From positions 1 through 42,729 of IMG/VR virus record IMGVR_UViG_3300036822_000280: 42,729 nt of DNA; one strand, given 5' to 3'. The translations under genes were made by a program, and so were the position numbers. The notes under the pieces were generated by a model. That model was not told the DNA's origin, did not search any database, and saw only the letters and a list, made by a program, of their open reading frames with translations. Shown here piece by piece: positions 1-42,729 of this stretch (positions are counted from its first letter, which is position 1; every line of letters begins with the position of its first letter). The stretch is from a virus.

Positions 1-477
1 ATCTCCAGTAGATATTGTAATATGAGGAATGAATTCAAGATCGTATATAAATCCAGACTCTAACAACAACCTTTGAGCCAGATAAACCTCTGGCGACGAA
101 ATTATTGCCACCGTGATATTTGCACGATCCCAGTAAACCACGTCATAAATAACAGCGCTTATCTGTTCTGGCATGATTGAATTTACATCGAGCTTTGATG
201 TCGGTTCTGTTCTCATGTGACAGATGGTAACGTGCTTATCATTCAGAATCTCGATATCACTTTTCGTACGCAGAGCAACATACAAATTAGTATCAATACT
301 ATTTGATACATCCACAGCCAGCGCATCGGCTCGTTTCTGCTGCGCATCGCGCTCAGCCTTCAAAGCTGAGGCTCCATTCAATTTTCTTACCAGATATGCC
401 GCAGTGCTTTCACCAACCAGCAAGTCACCCGGCAGGCATTTTCCGCGCAGAAACCCTTCCATTTCGAATGTGTTCAC
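1..477 (-). CDS. 2H phosphoesterase-like protein, partial (possible Acb1-type anti-CBASS nuclease)
   Basis: Only the first 159 residues are in the window; the gene runs off the left edge. A GTG start at 477 has a good ribosome site (AGGTAGGTG) and overlaps the stop of the small upstream ORF. Residues 1-60 look like the N-terminal module of lambdoid accessory proteins (GKCLPGD, AAYLVRKLNG, then a short charged helix). After that come two HxT motifs, H82-V-T84 (HVTIC) and H152-I-T154 (PHITIS), 70 residues apart. Paired HxT motifs define the 2H phosphoesterase fold (ligT/RNA-ligase-like phosphodiesterases). T4 Acb1, which degrades the cyclic nucleotides of CBASS defence, has the same paired motifs at nearly the same spacing as I recall. 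The 2H call follows from the motifs; the anti-CBASS role is inference. It lies at the distal end of the PL operon, a usual place for counter-defence genes. Confidence 0.6.
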   Translation of the reverse strand, partial: MNTFEMEGFLRGKCLPGDLLVGESTAAYLVRKLNGASALKAERDAQQKRADALAVDVSNSIDTNLYVALRTKSDIEILNDKHVTICHMRTEPTSKLDVNSIMPEQISAVIYDVVYWDRANITVAIISSPEVYLAQRLLLESGFIYDLEFIPHITISTGD

Positions 478-548
478 GCTTCACCTACCTGTTGGTTGTT
501 CAGTTTTTCGTATGTAGGGGCTAATTCATCGTTAATTCGTGCTGACAT
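474..548 (-). CDS. small ORF, 24 aa, upstream of the 2H gene
   Basis: A 24-residue ORF beginning MSARINDELAP with ribosome site AGAGG seven bases before the ATG. Its TGA overlaps the GTG start of the 2H phosphoesterase gene (GTGA), so the two are probably translationally coupled. It has no recognisable domain. It may be a real micropeptide or only a leader that loads ribosomes onto the next gene. Confidence 0.4.
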   Translation of the reverse strand: MSARINDELAPTYEKLNNQQVGEA

Positions 549-562
549 ACAAATTCCTCTCG

Positions 563-1576
563 TTAAGCTTGTTTGATTTTTGGAATGCGGCCGCGTGGCC
601 TTGGCTTCATGTCTGGGTATTTGCCACTGGCTATCAGCACTGCGACTCGGCTAACTATTTGCTTAGGCGTCCTTTCCATTTGCTCTGCAATTGAGTGGAT
701 TGACTCGCCGTCAATATAAAATCTGGATAATTGATATTCGTCTTGCGGTCCCCACGGGGTATAAAAGAACGCAGTGGAAAATCCGTGAGCGTTTGCCCAC
801 GTAACGATTGATTGTTTGGTCTTTTTGCAGTGGTTGGCGATTTCTATCGTTGGAATTTTCCCTATATTTTCAACGATGTATTTTATGTCCGCATCCGTGT
901 AACTGCTTGAGTCGCCAGCTTTAATGTCAGATTTAATCTGAGCCTGGATTTTGTCGTTTTTGTGCGAGTTGATGAATCGGCCAATTTCTAGCCTTGTCCT
1001 TTGGCACGCGCTGCTGATTGCATCAATCGATAGCTTTTCGCAGTTCTTCATGATGTAGCTAGCCTCATCCTCTGAGTAGCTATTGTCTGGCTTTGGCTGC
1101 GCTTCTATCTGCTCAGGCGTTAATCGATAGCCGCGGTTGATTGCCTTTTTGATGGCGGCATTGAACCCAAAATGAGTGGTTATCTCACTCAGCTCCTCAC
1201 CCAGGAACATGGACGCCTTGAATCTGCGCTCACCCATATCAGGCTTGTCTTTGCCAATATTTATCAGCAGATGCTTCAAATACTGGATTTCACCGGGCAT
1301 CAGCTTGCTGCAGGGTAAGTCATCCTCTTTGACGACCGTGTGAATGACCCTGTAGCTGTCTGTGAATAGCTGATAGACGTAGGTGTAGTCACCGTCGGGA
1401 GAGTGGAGGTTGTCGGCAGGCAGGTAGTGCGTCCAACCGAGTTTTGCCAGTGGGGAGTGAGGGTTGATGTTTTCCAGCTTGAATGCGGAAATATGCTTCC
1501 CCGGAGACGTCATCACGTTCCCGCGAGAAATGGCATCTCTACGAAAGTTATTCGCATGGAGAGGGTGGGTACTCAT
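563..1576 (-). CDS. hypothetical protein with three Myb/HTH-like repeats
   Basis: 337 residues; start supported by GGAGG six bases before ATG. I do not recognise a named family. Residues 167-204, 226-263 and 275-312 share one pattern: an aromatic residue, D/E-rich turn, YI or L..F helix, then IA......T...I, as in Myb/SANT or small helix-turn-helix modules. The C-terminus (PRPRGRIPK) resembles an AT-hook. Together these suggest a DNA-binding protein with several helical modules. It lies just downstream of the recombination genes in the PL operon and its architecture resembles the smaller products at 1596-1958 and 11461-11826. Function is unknown; DNA binding is inference. Confidence 0.7.
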   Translation of the reverse strand: MSTHPLHANNFRRDAISRGNVMTSPGKHISAFKLENINPHSPLAKLGWTHYLPADNLHSPDGDYTYVYQLFTDSYRVIHTVVKEDDLPCSKLMPGEIQYLKHLLINIGKDKPDMGERRFKASMFLGEELSEITTHFGFNAAIKKAINRGYRLTPEQIEAQPKPDNSYSEDEASYIMKNCEKLSIDAISSACQRTRLEIGRFINSHKNDKIQAQIKSDIKAGDSSSYTDADIKYIVENIGKIPTIEIANHCKKTKQSIVTWANAHGFSTAFFYTPWGPQDEYQLSRFYIDGESIHSIAEQMERTPKQIVSRVAVLIASGKYPDMKPRPRGRIPKIKQA

Positions 1577-1595
1577 GATTGCCTCCGGAGTGGAG

Positions 1596-1958
1596 TTAGT
1601 TTTTTGTTAGCCAGCCATTGCGGCGCAAGTTTTCAAGCAGTCGACGGTCGCCGATGCTCGCTTCACTTCTGCCGGTGAGTTCTGATATTTGCTGGTTGGA
1701 ATGGGTGTTAAAGAGTGATAGTTCTTCTGATGTCCATCTGTCGCAGGGCTTGATTAAGTCTCTCCATTTACTCAGAACCCGCTTCGGGTTGTTGTACTTC
1801 AATTTAAAATCGCCAACCCGGCGCAGTCTCATTTTCTTGGCTTGCTGAATGATTGCCGCCTCGGTTCGCTCCAGCTTCCCTGCAATGATTTCAACCTCCA
1901 TATTTAGCGGGGCCCGCCGTAGAAAAACCTTCTCGTATTCTTGCCATCTTTCAGCCAT
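1596..1958 (-). CDS. hypothetical HTH/Myb-like protein
   Basis: 120 residues from the ATG at 1958. An in-frame ATG at 1970 is less likely, because GGAGATAACC (the ribosome site) lies between the two. Two modules are visible: residues near 5-45 (YEKVF, IIAGKLERTEAAI) and near 75-105 (WTSEELSLF, ISELTGRSEASI). Both follow the acidic-aromatic helix then 'I..L..R...I' pattern of Myb/HTH DNA-binding modules. It starts two bases after the exo stop, so it is in the same operon. Specific function is unknown. Confidence 0.65.
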   Translation of the reverse strand: MAERWQEYEKVFLRRAPLNMEVEIIAGKLERTEAAIIQQAKKMRLRRVGDFKLKYNNPKRVLSKWRDLIKPCDRWTSEELSLFNTHSNQQISELTGRSEASIGDRRLLENLRRNGWLTKN

Positions 1959-1960
1959 GG

Positions 1961-2644
1961 TTATCTCCATTGATCCCCGAATGAGAAGCCAATTTCTGCA
2001 AGCGCTTCGTCCATTTTATCGATGAACTCTGGCACCATTTCATTGAAATCGGACATGTATTTTTCATCACGCTCAATCAGAATGTGGTGAATACCCTCAC
2101 GCTTCATGCGCGGGTCATAATTACCGAAGTACCAGCCATCCTTGCCGGTTACCCACATGCTGTATTGCACTTGTGCCATGTACTCTGATTTGATGGCATC
2201 AAGGCCACCGAGTAGAAACTTCATGAACACTGCGCTTGTGAATGGGCACTTTAGCTCTAGACCGCGGCCGTCTGAGCACAACCCATCTGGAGAGCACGCT
2301 GTTCTCATTGCATCGTCTCGGTACAAGATAGGGGCCTCGATGACGCTTACGTTGGCCGTAAATTCGAATAGCATCCGTGCTGAATCTTCGTGTTGTTTCC
2401 CCCAGGCTAAAGCCTTCGCATTCACTTCCGGTGCTTCACCCGTACAAACTTCACCAAGCAATGTGTAGAAGTAGGTCAGTTTCATGTCAGACCATTTGGT
2501 TCCGTTCCGTGGCTTTGAAATGACTTTTGATGCTTCAGAGGCAGTAATTACACCCAGTCTAAGCCGATGCCATTCTGAGCTTCCTTGCTCAATTTGGTTA
2601 ACGTCTACGCCGGTACGCTGCAGTATCATTTCAGAAGTGATCAT
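1961..2644 (-). CDS. exo: λ Exo-type 5'-3' exonuclease (YqaJ/RecB-like nuclease)
   Basis: 227 residues, collinear with λ Exo (226 aa), and near identical in blocks such as [25 protein letters not shown] and [11 protein letters not shown]. Catalytic residues are conserved as D120 (SPDGL), E130 and K132 (GLELKCP), equivalent to λ D119, E129 and K131. λ Exo is a trimeric, processive nuclease that resects one strand of a double-strand end so that an annealing protein can load. The start overlaps the recT stop (GTGATCATG region), giving coupled translation. It is partnered here with a RecT-family annealase rather than λ Bet. Confidence 0.95.
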
Positions 2645-3582
2645 GCTGCCGCCTTAGTCCGTTTCAATAGGAAGTCATGCGCCTTAACCGCCTCGATTTC
2701 AGTGAGTTCTGAGGCCGCTGTTATAGTGCGCCGGAAAATTTGAGAACAAAGCGGTAGCATATCCTCCCAGGTTTTATCCATCTGAGTAAGAAGGTCGGTG
2801 ATGGTCTGCAGGGTTTCATTAGTGGCTGGAGAAATATCCTTTTCTTTCCCACGCTCTTGGCTAAAATTAATGCCTTCACCGGCCTCGGTATTTACGTAGT
2901 CAATCGCCTGATCCAGCCGGTCGCGACGTGGCCAATATTTGTACGCTTGTTTAACCACTGTTTTTAGGATCATTTGTTCTTCATCGGTTGACCAAGGGCA
3001 AGATTTGATCTTCTTTGCGGTAAATGACTTCCATGCCTCTGACCTGTCGCGAATGGCGTAGATGTCTTCTGATCTCATCGTGTGGGTCAGGTAATCACCG
3101 TCTGCTGTTTTGGCTACAACGTACGCGCCGACGACATCACCACGACTCTCTATGGTGTCGAATTCGTTAAATTCGTGCGACGGCGGCCTGTCGATTGAAG
3201 TGCGCATGAATTTGTCGTTCCTGCGTACAATCGCTGACTGACACCACATGATCGCGCCAGACTGCTGTGCGATGTGCATTAGTCCAAAGTAGGAAATATC
3301 CAAGCAGACCTGAAACTTGTCTTTGAATTTTCGTGGAACGAGATAGGCAAGTTTTTTTCCCGGGTTTAGCGTAATTCCAATTGATGACAGGTTTAAAATG
3401 GCACTACGGGTCGCTGGCCATGTGTCCAAAGCAACCTTCGCAAGAAACTCATTAGCACCGAAGGATTGCATCGCGTATTCCATTTCACGCTTAAAACCGA
3501 TCCCGGGCTCTGAACAGACCGCTTGGAAGTCTTGCTCAAGCGGCAATAACTGTTGGTGAATTACATCGATGTTATTGGCCAT
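2641..3582 (-). CDS. recT: RecT-family single-strand annealing protein
   Basis: 313 residues. The ATG at 3582 overlaps the upstream stop (TGATG) and follows GAGGTGG; a GTG one codon earlier is also in frame. The N-terminal and central part matches the RecT family: [24 protein letters not shown], a [12 protein letters not shown] segment, [21 protein letters not shown], and a [13 protein letters not shown] helix. RecT proteins coat single-stranded DNA and anneal it to complementary strands in phage recombination. The neighbour downstream is λ-type exo, so the pair forms a two-component recombination system. The C-terminal 80 residues are more variable and likely contact the nuclease or SSB. Confidence 0.93.
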
Positions 3583-3884
3583 CACGCCACCTCGTCATAG
3601 CTATGTTTATTTCGGTAAATTTCTAGGGCCCGCTGATGCTTGACCAGCTCAGTTAACCCATCCCAAATTGCCTTGCTGGCTAACTCCTGGTATTCGGTGG
3701 AGTCGGTGCCAATTTCCATTACATCGGCATCAATGCCGGGTAGGTTTTGTTTGAGCATTTCAGTGAAATGGTGAATCCGGAACTGCTTATCAAGACGTTC
3801 AACTTCACTGTAGACGGCCTCATTGTCCCGTTCGGTAAAACTGGCAGCGATGCGTTTAATTTCCAGTGCCTGCAGTGCGTTCAT
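3582..3884 (-). CDS. hypothetical protein upstream of recT
   Basis: 100 residues from the ATG at 3884, chosen because GGAGG lies seven bases upstream; the longer reading from 3929 has no such site. It is helical and charged (MNALQALEIKRIAASF; YSEVERLDKQFRIHHFTEML) with no known motif. Start and stop both overlap neighbours (ATGA before, TGATG after), so it is coupled to recT. It occupies the position of gam in λ, but no similarity to Gam is visible. Function unknown. Confidence 0.7.
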   Translation of the reverse strand: MNALQALEIKRIAASFTERDNEAVYSEVERLDKQFRIHHFTEMLKQNLPGIDADVMEIGTDSTEYQELASKAIWDGLTELVKHQRALEIYRNKHSYDEVA

Positions 3885-5760: not shown

Positions 5761-6027
5761 CTATCGAGCCGTGATTTTCTCAGACTTACGATGACCTGCT
5801 GCGAACATTGCTACTTGCGGCAAACACATCGCACCGCCTTCTGATGTTTCGTGAACCGGTCGAGGACAAGCTTTGTAGCCAATCAGTGATAATGCCTTGG
5901 CTACTTTTGAGCTACCTACAAGGGCTGTAGCGATGCTCTTACTCAACCTGATATCCTTTGTTGCCTCTGCACGTTCAGCCGCTCTACGGAGCTTCCTGCG
6001 CAGCTTGCAGCGTTCTCTTGCGTTCAT
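5761..6027 (-). CDS. N: antitermination protein N (P22-type)
   Basis: 88 residues. The N-terminus (NARERCKLRRKLRRAAERAE) is an arginine-rich motif of the kind that binds boxB RNA. The C-terminus (MFAAGHRKSEKITAR) matches, from memory, the P22 N C-terminus (YAAGHRKSKQITAR), which contacts RNA polymerase and Nus factors. N lets polymerase read through terminators in the PL and PR operons. It is the first gene of the PL operon and three intrinsic terminators lie downstream, as expected. GGAG lies eight bases before the ATG. This P22-type N is combined with λ-type CI and Cro. Confidence 0.88.
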   Translation of the reverse strand: MNARERCKLRRKLRRAAERAEATKDIRLSKSIATALVGSSKVAKALSLIGYKACPRPVHETSEGGAMCLPQVAMFAAGHRKSEKITAR

Positions 6028-40107: not shown

Positions 40108-41940
40108 ATGGGTTTGACCGACAATCTTGCTGCTTCAAGATATGCAAGCATCTCAGAAAATGCTGCTGCCGAAGCCAAATCATATGCAGATCGCGCCGCG
40201 CTATCAGAAGACTACGCCGATCAATCACAAGAAAGTGCTGATGCCTCAGCACAAGCTGCAATACAAGCTGAGTCAGCAAAACAAGATGCGATTATTTCAT
40301 CAGAGGCATCCGCTGCATCTGCCGATGCATCTTTGACATCGGCAAATGAGGCTGCCATTTCAGCGGCCTATGCTTCAACATCATCAAACGTGTATTTGAC
40401 CGTTGCTGACGCGCAGGCGGCGATTACTGCCGGGACAATACCTTTGAATGCTCTGTTTAATGTTCGCGGGTCAGATGAGTCATTCGTAGATCGATATCAG
40501 AACGTAGCGGGTGTGGCCACCTTTACCGGTGAAAGTGATCCGAGCAAGGACTTTGTAACATCAAAGGTTGATAGCACCGAAGCCGGTAACAGCCGCGTTC
40601 CGCTGTATCAGGATGATGCAGGCAAAGTGCCTGTATGGCTAACAAATGGTGATCTGGATGCCAGAGGGGTTGCAGACGGGATAGTAAACAGTCTGGCCGG
40701 GCGTGTTATTGGGAAAGGGACAGAGCAATTTACCGCGAAAAGCGTCAAGGTTCCACTGTGGTATGACGAGGCGGGTAAGGTACCAGTATGGTTAGATAAT
40801 GGAAACTTGGCCGCTCGCGGGCTCTCTAGCGCACTATTAAATGTCATAACAACACTCATCTCTCCATCATTTCAAATGAGAGAGGCACCTCTAGCCGCGA
40901 CTAAGCCTATCTCTTCTGATGGCCGAACATTGTTTAAGTTCAAGTCAAAACTTGGGCGCGTTTTGAATAACGAAGCCATCACGCCAAGGATAATGTTGAC
41001 GGGGGATTCTTGGGCTGAGTATGTAGCCATACCACAGGCTGTATATAATATTTGCTCATCAAAGTATGCTGCATCAAACTCGTCATATATATCAGTTAAT
41101 GGCCAGTTCATGCTTAATTCAGCCACATTTTCTAAGTCAGCAGGGTGGGTACTTTATGATGCAAGTCTTGTTTCTGTTGGGCCGACAAATGGTTGCGGGC
41201 CTGATGGGCAATCAATAAGCACCACCGCAGCAGATCAGACGATAAACATCACAAGTCAGCAATGCACCCAAGTTAATATTCTTTGCCAGAATCTGAATGG
41301 TACCTTCAGATACAGGATTGATGGCGGATCATGGGTCACTATTACCGGAACTAACACTGGGGTAATGCAGCGAGTAACTACCGGAACGCTATCTGACACC
41401 ACTCACTCCATTGATATAGATACTACGGGGAATACCGGTACTGTAGCAATTCACGGGCTGTGGTGTCCAAGGGCGGCAAGAGGTGTTGAAATACAGAAGT
41501 GTGGTAATGCAGGCATAACCGGCAGCGGCATAACTAACTATTACACCCAAATACAGCAATATGCTTCCTTCATGCAGCCCGATTTGATATTTATTATTCT
41601 AGGGACTAATGATTTCAGGCTGAGTAAAACAATTCTTTCTTATACCGATGGTATGAGGAATATGATTGCTCAGTACAAAGCGGCCTATGCAGAAACAGGA
41701 ATTGTATTGGTAAGTCCCGCGAGGTGTAATGCAACCGGAGCGCTACCTACGACAGATTTTAGGAATGCAATGGCAGCATTGGCAATGGAGTTGGGCGTGG
41801 AATTTTTCAATTTTCACGATGATTGGGACGTTTGGGCCGTAATGAATCCATATGGTGTATGGGTTGACTCACTTCATCTCAACGACTCAGGCGCTGCCGC
41901 ATTGGCTAAATCTCTCGATAAGCATTTCCTTTCCCAGTAG
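40108..41940 (+). CDS. tail spike with GDSL/SGNH esterase domain
   Basis: 610 residues. Residues 1-95 are an alanine-rich coiled coil (QESADASAQAAIQAESAKQD). Residues 163-197 and 214-248 are a tandem duplicate (VPL..D.AGKVPVWL.NG.L.ARG). The SGNH hydrolase core follows: block I GDSW (S301), block III GTND (N501) and block V D587-S-L-H590. A β domain of about residues 365-455 is inserted between I and III. SGNH enzymes on tail spikes remove acetyl groups from capsule or O-antigen. It is probably a trimer. Confidence 0.85.
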   Translation: MGLTDNLAASRYASISENAAAEAKSYADRAALSEDYADQSQESADASAQAAIQAESAKQDAIISSEASAASADASLTSANEAAISAAYASTSSNVYLTVADAQAAITAGTIPLNALFNVRGSDESFVDRYQNVAGVATFTGESDPSKDFVTSKVDSTEAGNSRVPLYQDDAGKVPVWLTNGDLDARGVADGIVNSLAGRVIGKGTEQFTAKSVKVPLWYDEAGKVPVWLDNGNLAARGLSSALLNVITTLISPSFQMREAPLAATKPISSDGRTLFKFKSKLGRVLNNEAITPRIMLTGDSWAEYVAIPQAVYNICSSKYAASNSSYISVNGQFMLNSATFSKSAGWVLYDASLVSVGPTNGCGPDGQSISTTAADQTINITSQQCTQVNILCQNLNGTFRYRIDGGSWVTITGTNTGVMQRVTTGTLSDTTHSIDIDTTGNTGTVAIHGLWCPRAARGVEIQKCGNAGITGSGITNYYTQIQQYASFMQPDLIFIILGTNDFRLSKTILSYTDGMRNMIAQYKAAYAETGIVLVSPARCNATGALPTTDFRNAMAALAMELGVEFFNFHDDWDVWAVMNPYGVWVDSLHLNDSGAAALAKSLDKHFLSQ

Positions 41941-41949
41941 GACACTCAT

Positions 41950-42729
41950 ATGACCACCGTAACCAAGTTAACGGGAATTACTTTGCCGGGAACCGGCTAC
42001 CCAGATATTAATAGTTTTAAAGAAATATACATGTCAGTGACTAGTGGGCTTATTGGCTTGTACTCAATAAGAGACACGCTGGCTTTCTCATTAAATAATT
42101 ACGCGACTGGCGGCTCTCCTATGACTATTGTTGGTGCCCCCACAATGTCGGGTGACGGGGCTGTTTGTAATTATGCAAACTGCTTTGATACAGGTATAGC
42201 GACACAGACTGCATATTCGTTTCTTGCGCTGGCCAAGCCAACTTTATCAACAGATGCGACACAAAACTGCATGATAGTGAGCAGTTATTTCCAGCCATCA
42301 GCAGGACAAAATGCGGGGGACTCAATAGGGTTTGCCGCTAATGGTACAACAAACCCTAGATTTAGAAACTACTCACAAAACTCTACGTCTTCGGTAATAT
42401 TTGCAGATGCTGGTGTGACAGGATTTAGCGAAAGCAGTGTGGCATTTTTTGCAGGCGTGACGTCTTTAACTGATGGAGTGCGATTGGCATTTGGTCATGG
42501 CGGGTCGCTTTCGATTGGCACACCTACGACATTGTCTGCTCGAAACATTACTGGCGCAGGAACCATCCTCGTTGGTGGTCACCGGGGCCCATCGACATTC
42601 TTCCCGGCATTCGGGAAAGGTATTTACGCTGTCGCTATTTATAATCGCGCGATAACCAACGCAGAGATTACCCAGGGCTACGCAGACCTATCAAGCTATG
42701 CCGTAGATCGCGGGATCACTACTGTTTAG
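41950..42729 (+). CDS. tail-associated receptor-binding protein, LamG-like
   Basis: 259 residues, β-rich. SLNNYATGGSPMTIVGAP, FLALAKPTLSTDATQ, GHRGPSTFFPAFGKGIYAVA and IYNRAITNAEITQGYADL resemble concanavalin/LamG-like domains, where IYNRALT..EI is a common closing motif. It could bind surface sugars or attach to the SGNH spike. The stop codon is the last three bases of the window. Confidence 0.7.
   Translation: MTTVTKLTGITLPGTGYPDINSFKEIYMSVTSGLIGLYSIRDTLAFSLNNYATGGSPMTIVGAPTMSGDGAVCNYANCFDTGIATQTAYSFLALAKPTLSTDATQNCMIVSSYFQPSAGQNAGDSIGFAANGTTNPRFRNYSQNSTSSVIFADAGVTGFSESSVAFFAGVTSLTDGVRLAFGHGGSLSIGTPTTLSARNITGAGTILVGGHRGPSTFFPAFGKGIYAVAIYNRAITNAEITQGYADLSSYAVDRGITTV

Follow-up and report, generated by a model that had tools for sequence, protein, structure and literature searches.

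The window analyzed here is the whole 42,729-nucleotide stretch of DNA that makes up virus record IMGVR_UViG_3300036822_000280, and its left end runs through a minus-strand gene whose predicted product combines a lambdoid scaffold with a 2H phosphoesterase domain. The gene, its parts and its neighbors are listed below.

1..477, minus strand: truncated scaffold-2H fusion gene (159 codons, GTG start, 3' end past the record)
370..477, minus strand: N-module, residues 1-36, of the M-N-x-[YF]-E-M-E-G-F-L-R-G-K-C type, common to lambdoid proteins with other payloads
307..369, minus strand: coiled-coil linker, residues 37-57, ALKAERDAQQKRADALAVD, a helix in the model
1..291, minus strand: predicted Acb1-type 2H phosphoesterase domain, residues 63-159, last strand cut off by the record edge
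280..282, minus strand: Y66, aligned with base-stacking Y12 of T4 Acb1
226..234, minus strand: first HxT motif, H82-V-T84, aligned with T4 Acb1 H44/T46
130..132, minus strand: W116 of the YW motif, aligned with base-stacking W74 of T4 Acb1
16..24, minus strand: second HxT motif, H152-I-T154, aligned with T4 Acb1 H113/T115
474-548, minus strand: leader open reading frame of 24 residues (MSARINDELAPTYEKLNNQQVGEA), in GTGA overlap with the start of the 2H gene
563-1576 and 1596-1970, minus strand: two phrog_323-type regulators, in the same PL-type operon, upstream of the 2H gene
1961-2644, minus strand: RecE-like exonuclease, same operon, upstream
2641-3585, minus strand: RecT, same operon, upstream
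5761..6027, minus strand: N-like antitermination protein (phrog_271), at the operon head

The minus-strand frame from GTG 477 stays in phase to base 1 over 159 codons without a stop, as the original prediction had stated, and the start appears to be correct, since the proteins of viral contigs L002 and L003 begin at the same residue. Because the record holds only 42,729 bases, the 3' end of the gene is truly missing; no contig extending it was found in the viral-contig, genome-contig or E. coli genome collections, and a DNA search with positions 1-548 against the E. coli genomes gave 0 matches. Joining the record ends into a circle adds 12 codons before a stop, and this reading was rejected because the record is classed as linear and the joined frame lacks both the last 2H strand and the C-terminal module of the relatives. 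Comparison with close relatives gave a dN/dS of approximately 0.12 to 0.26, which points to purifying selection on the window gene; in more distant comparisons dS was saturated, making those values rough. The leader open reading frame is conserved in L002, and its overlap with the start of the 2H gene suggests translational coupling. At its other end, the record stops exactly with the last tail gene, whose stop codon occupies positions 42727-42729, as though the contig had been trimmed to a gene boundary.

Upstream of the 2H gene on the same strand lie the regulators, the RecE-like gene and RecT (together 563..3585) and, at the head, the N-like gene, which places the 2H gene distally in a PL-type operon. 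This order is consistent with the predicted position at the distal end of an N-dependent operon; the dependence on N itself is one that we infer, since a simple boxA scan revealed no nut site. It had also been proposed that this position fits counter-defense: it does fit early expression, but position alone does not show counter-defense, and no defense or anti-defense genes were recognized near the 2H gene. Elsewhere in the window, positions 40108-41940 (plus strand) encode a tail-fiber-like protein, perhaps a deacetylating depolymerase, in which a DDAGKVPVWL-type repeat occurs twice and the C-terminal part resembles SGNH/GDSL hydrolases by eye (GDSW, GTND, DSLH).

The two HxT motifs of the window protein are 70 residues apart, and H44 and H113 of T4 Acb1 are 69 apart by the numbering of PMC9117128, in line with the closeness to the T4 Acb1 spacing that the original prediction had stated. 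The truncated protein has a sole Pfam match, to Acb1 (PF23474), at 18.0 bits (E 0.0025), which is below the gathering cut-off of 27 bits. Its full-length relatives, 57-59% (L029 and L030) and 54% (L037, a bacterial copy) identical to it, score 31.9 (L029), 27.7 (L037) and 26.3 bits (L030), two of the three being above the cut-off. The window protein also matches phrog_755, the family that contains T4 57B/Acb1 (5e-68). Neither the window protein nor the Pontus protein, used singly as query against the PDB, returned anything useful, whereas a profile of the family, run against the complete set of PDB sequences, placed 9q2g, 7t26 and 9q2y, all of them Acb1, in the top three positions. In HHalign comparisons, the family aligned with seven Straboviridae gp57B/Acb1-type proteins at 97.2% probability (score 70), against 6.3% (score 24) for cellular ThpR from the bacterial family searched; the LigT_PEase and 2_5_RNA_ligase2 profiles gave no match to the window protein and only scores below cut-off for the relatives. 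On sequence comparison, then, we assign the window domain to the Acb1 family of 2H phosphoesterases as a divergent member.

The 2H fragment alone matched none of the viral contigs, while the family alignment reached L029-L034; the GTDB family search yielded one bacterial copy (L037, in genome G193), and no further 2H copy was found in 395 genomes of the order. At one of these loci (L034, 997-1366) the 2H relative is split into two overlapping frames, through either a genuine frameshift or an error in sequencing.

Structure prediction had been proposed as a check on the 2H fold and on the placement of the two histidines. In the model of the full-length relative L029 (mean pLDDT 71.5, higher in the 2H core), a 2H fold is predicted in which the two HxT motifs lie on core strands and the last strand is in place. 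Its VIA-align Z scores were 11.5 for Acb1 9q2g, 11.2 for the Arabidopsis CPDase, 11.1 for FBB1 Acb1 7t26 and 9.2 for LigT, the alignments with Acb1 structures covering 114-120 residues. The truncated window protein gave a model with a mean pLDDT of 69 that lacks the last 2H strand; five Acb1 rows rank first for it, without significance, and Foldseek returned no E value below 0.001, so the fold claim rests on the model of the relative. The concern that a C-terminal strand might be missing from the full-length gene can be judged only in the relatives, where the strand is present. The predicted fold supports a 2H phosphoesterase and by itself cannot choose between Acb1 and CPDase, a choice in which the sequence profiles favor Acb1.

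In the family alignment of 11 sequences, the histidine and threonine of the first motif and the histidine of the second are present in 11/11 and the threonine of the second in 10/11, and residues H22, T24, Y55, W56, T62, V63, G82, H92 and G98 (domain numbering) are invariant. This conservation, the low dN/dS and the position of the histidines on core strands in the relative's model argue that the HxT pair is more than a chance occurrence. The roles of the catalytic, base-stacking and lid residues of Acb1 are taken from PMC9117128. The window protein keeps the catalytic tetrad and the equivalents of Y12 and W74, and in the joint alignment it has Leu147 at the position of F107. The position of E141, which reads adenine in T4 Acb1, is usually Arg in the full-length relatives, and the fused full-length relatives have no Trp at the position of the lid residue W147; both positions would fall past the edge in the window gene. 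With E141 and W147 replaced or absent in the relatives and Leu standing at F107, the substrate may be another than that of T4 Acb1. The catalytic mechanism is likely shared with Acb1, while the substrate range may not be, and the exact nucleotide specificity probably differs; with an altered lid, a different signal may be the one that is degraded.

The domain sits within a much larger family of mosaic proteins. Over residues 1-56 the window protein is 88% identical to L002 and 75% identical to L003, its front half matches phrog_614 (1.4e-11), and its N-module was matched at the N-terminus of 18 out of 95 scaffold proteins. All three complete 2H relatives (L029, L030 and L037) have the same order of coiled-coil N-part, 2H domain and C-module, the latter of the type TPATDAFLAEVRAQGVEMFA...QLRKG. 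The C-module is present in at least 565 viral loci; the 80 retained for comparison all share this architecture, with interchangeable N-modules and interchangeable central payloads. The four 2H carriers, the window included, have four different N-modules, with weak similarity found only between L029 and L030, in the coiled coil; each of these N-modules recurs in 5-18 scaffold proteins with other payloads, and no match to the 2H cassette exists in any of the 95 other scaffold proteins. Escherichia phages KarinMuster and PDP46 and Erwinia phage AH03 were set aside, as they share the N-module only, without the 2H domain.

The linker of the window protein, ALKAERDAQQKRADALAV, is found in viral contigs L002-L016, and all 15 of 15 proteins end in an EAK-type C-module, for which reason the window gene is expected to enter such a module past the edge. 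Its missing 3' part would thus comprise the last 2H strand and a C-module of the type TPAT(D/S)AALAAI.A.GVE...LREAK. Across 75 diverse loci (L046-L125, L002-L017), the DNA encoding the C-module linker, DAFLAEVRAQGVE, hardly varies at many synonymous positions, with GCT in 74/75, CTG in 73/75 and CAG in 74/75; near invariance that extends to third positions fits payload exchange by recombination in shared linkers. A second payload, GxxxFSYGSEFSFECHKTAEEAIAAAEAAIDDYRGDACDGWSEEV...WGIIIQ, recurs with differing N-modules in L011, L074, L097, L100, L124 and L125; in L011, the one case tested, it had no Pfam or NCBIfam match, and the other scaffold payloads tested against Pfam and NCBIfam received no family name either.

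These comparisons identify the 2H domain as a cassette that can be exchanged at the center of mosaic lambdoid scaffold proteins (phrog_614/492/368), a family linked to Ea22. Of the original interpretation, the 2H fold, the Acb1 kinship and the fusion to a lambdoid accessory module hold up through profiles, fold comparison and full-length relatives, but what was called an unusual fusion is better seen as one payload of a large scaffold family. The link to Ea22 runs through phrog_368, which connects the front part of lambda Ea22 to the scaffold C-module, and phrog_614, which connects the window N-module to it. At E<=1 the window protein has no match to Pfam PF13935 (Ead_Ea22), for which lambda Ea22 reaches 100.9 bits, and "Ea22-related" is therefore the furthest label that is supported. 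Published work describes the Ea22 variants as mosaic proteins whose C-terminal domains are unrelated and have no known activity (PMC7093339, PMC10834534).

We consider it reasonably probable that the product of the window gene is a mosaic scaffold protein of the lambdoid type, with an Acb1-family 2H payload that degrades a cyclic-nucleotide defense signal. Such a protein would act as follows: (i) it would be made early from the N-antiterminated PL operon; (ii) it would oligomerize via its coiled coil; (iii) H82/T84 and H152/T154 would open a 3'-5' phosphodiester bond of a small cyclic di- or trinucleotide without the help of a metal; and (iv) the cleavage would lower a host defense signal, e.g., a CBASS messenger. 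Anti-CBASS activity is something that we infer and no more than that. Suitable targets do exist, as CD-NTases (SMODS) occur in 13/198 genomes of the GTDB family of a scaffold-bearing bacterium, which may not be the family of the phage host. The wider idea, that the scaffold family with its hundreds of loci is a general, recombination-driven carrier of counter-defense or host-takeover payloads, the Acb1-type 2H domain being the first among them to show a recognizable enzyme fold, is a tentative one that we would not bet on.

The profile and fold data bear also on whether the domain could instead be an RNA-end or tRNA-repair enzyme, that is, a LigT/CPDase-like 2',3'-cyclic phosphodiesterase rather than a cyclic-oligonucleotide nuclease, countering anticodon nucleases or processing Appr>p. 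The plant ADP-ribose 1'',2''-cyclic phosphate CPDase (Arabidopsis, Z 11.2) ties with Acb1, LigT following at 9.2, and the distant relative S0112 scores LigT_PEase above Acb1. The phage homologs are labeled "RNA ligase," but so is T4 Acb1 itself, and with the W74 and Y12 stacking positions kept and both HHalign and the profile searches setting the family apart from ThpR in favor of Acb1, we regard an RNA-end role as unlikely. Another proposal is that of an Ea22-type developmental regulator tuning the lysis-lysogeny decision, the 2H payload of which would bind or degrade a housekeeping messenger without a direct counter-defense role. In its favor are the phrog_368 connection between the scaffold and the Ea22 family, a PL-distal location matching that of lambda ea22, and the pro-lysogenic character of Ea22 proteins, whose C-terminal domains are unrelated (PMC7093339, PMC10834534). 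Against it speak the consistent conservation of the HxT motifs, the purifying selection on the gene, the fact that the nearest characterized relatives are anti-CBASS nucleases and the failure of Pfam Ead_Ea22 to match the window protein, and we judge it rather improbable.

The location of the gene at the very edge of the record, together with the distant relative locus broken into two frames (L034), raises the question of whether the fusion is only apparent and stems from a chimeric contig end or from a gene in decay. Three independent records (L029, L030 and the bacterial contig L037) encode the coiled coil, 2H domain and C-module in an identical order; together with the intact frame in the window and its low dN/dS, they make this highly improbable. 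The preferred reading, of an Acb1-family payload acting on a defense signal, would give early lambdoid proteins of this class, whose variable domains were previously without known activity, a first testable biochemical role, with the Acb1 fold as a swappable cassette in an Ea22-related mosaic. It suggests that mosaic lambdoid proteins can carry counter-defense enzymes and that the other scaffold payloads are worth screening for counter-defense.

Descriptions of Acb1 come from phages and prophages, the T4 protein being a free enzyme of 152 residues (PMC9117128), and our literature search found no paper on Acb1 in a lambdoid fusion. With the known Acb1 proteins (T4 gp57B, FBB1 7T26/7T27 and BCSR5 9Q2G; PF23474, phrog_755) the window family shares the predicted 2H fold, the HxT/HxT tetrad at a spacing of 69-70, the Y12 and W74 equivalents and profile kinship. 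It differs in a shorter loop before the first HxT and the Leu at F107 of the window protein, and in the replaced E141 and missing W147 of its full-length relatives; furthermore, the C-terminus of T4 Acb1 forms the lid, whereas the 2H domain of the window family is embedded between scaffold modules. Stand-alone 2H proteins of Vibrio phages Pontus, Thalassa, KIT04 and 1.198, Shewanella phage S0112 and Klebsiella phage vB_Kpn2-P2 have the domain at 24-33% identity with conserved HxT, YW, TV and G, but are free-standing, without scaffold modules, and are unannotated or labeled "RNA ligase." LigT/ThpR and the plant CPDase share the 2H fold, ThpR being set apart by profile comparison and CPDase tied in fold score. 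The Ead/Ea22-like lambdoid proteins (phrog_368/250, PF13935) lie, like the window gene, in the PL operon beyond the exo/recombinase genes, and have the same short N-module, coiled coil and variable domain in a mosaic organization (PMC10834534); the window protein differs from them in having no PF13935 match and a payload with a recognized enzyme fold, and its complete relatives in ending in the shared C-module.
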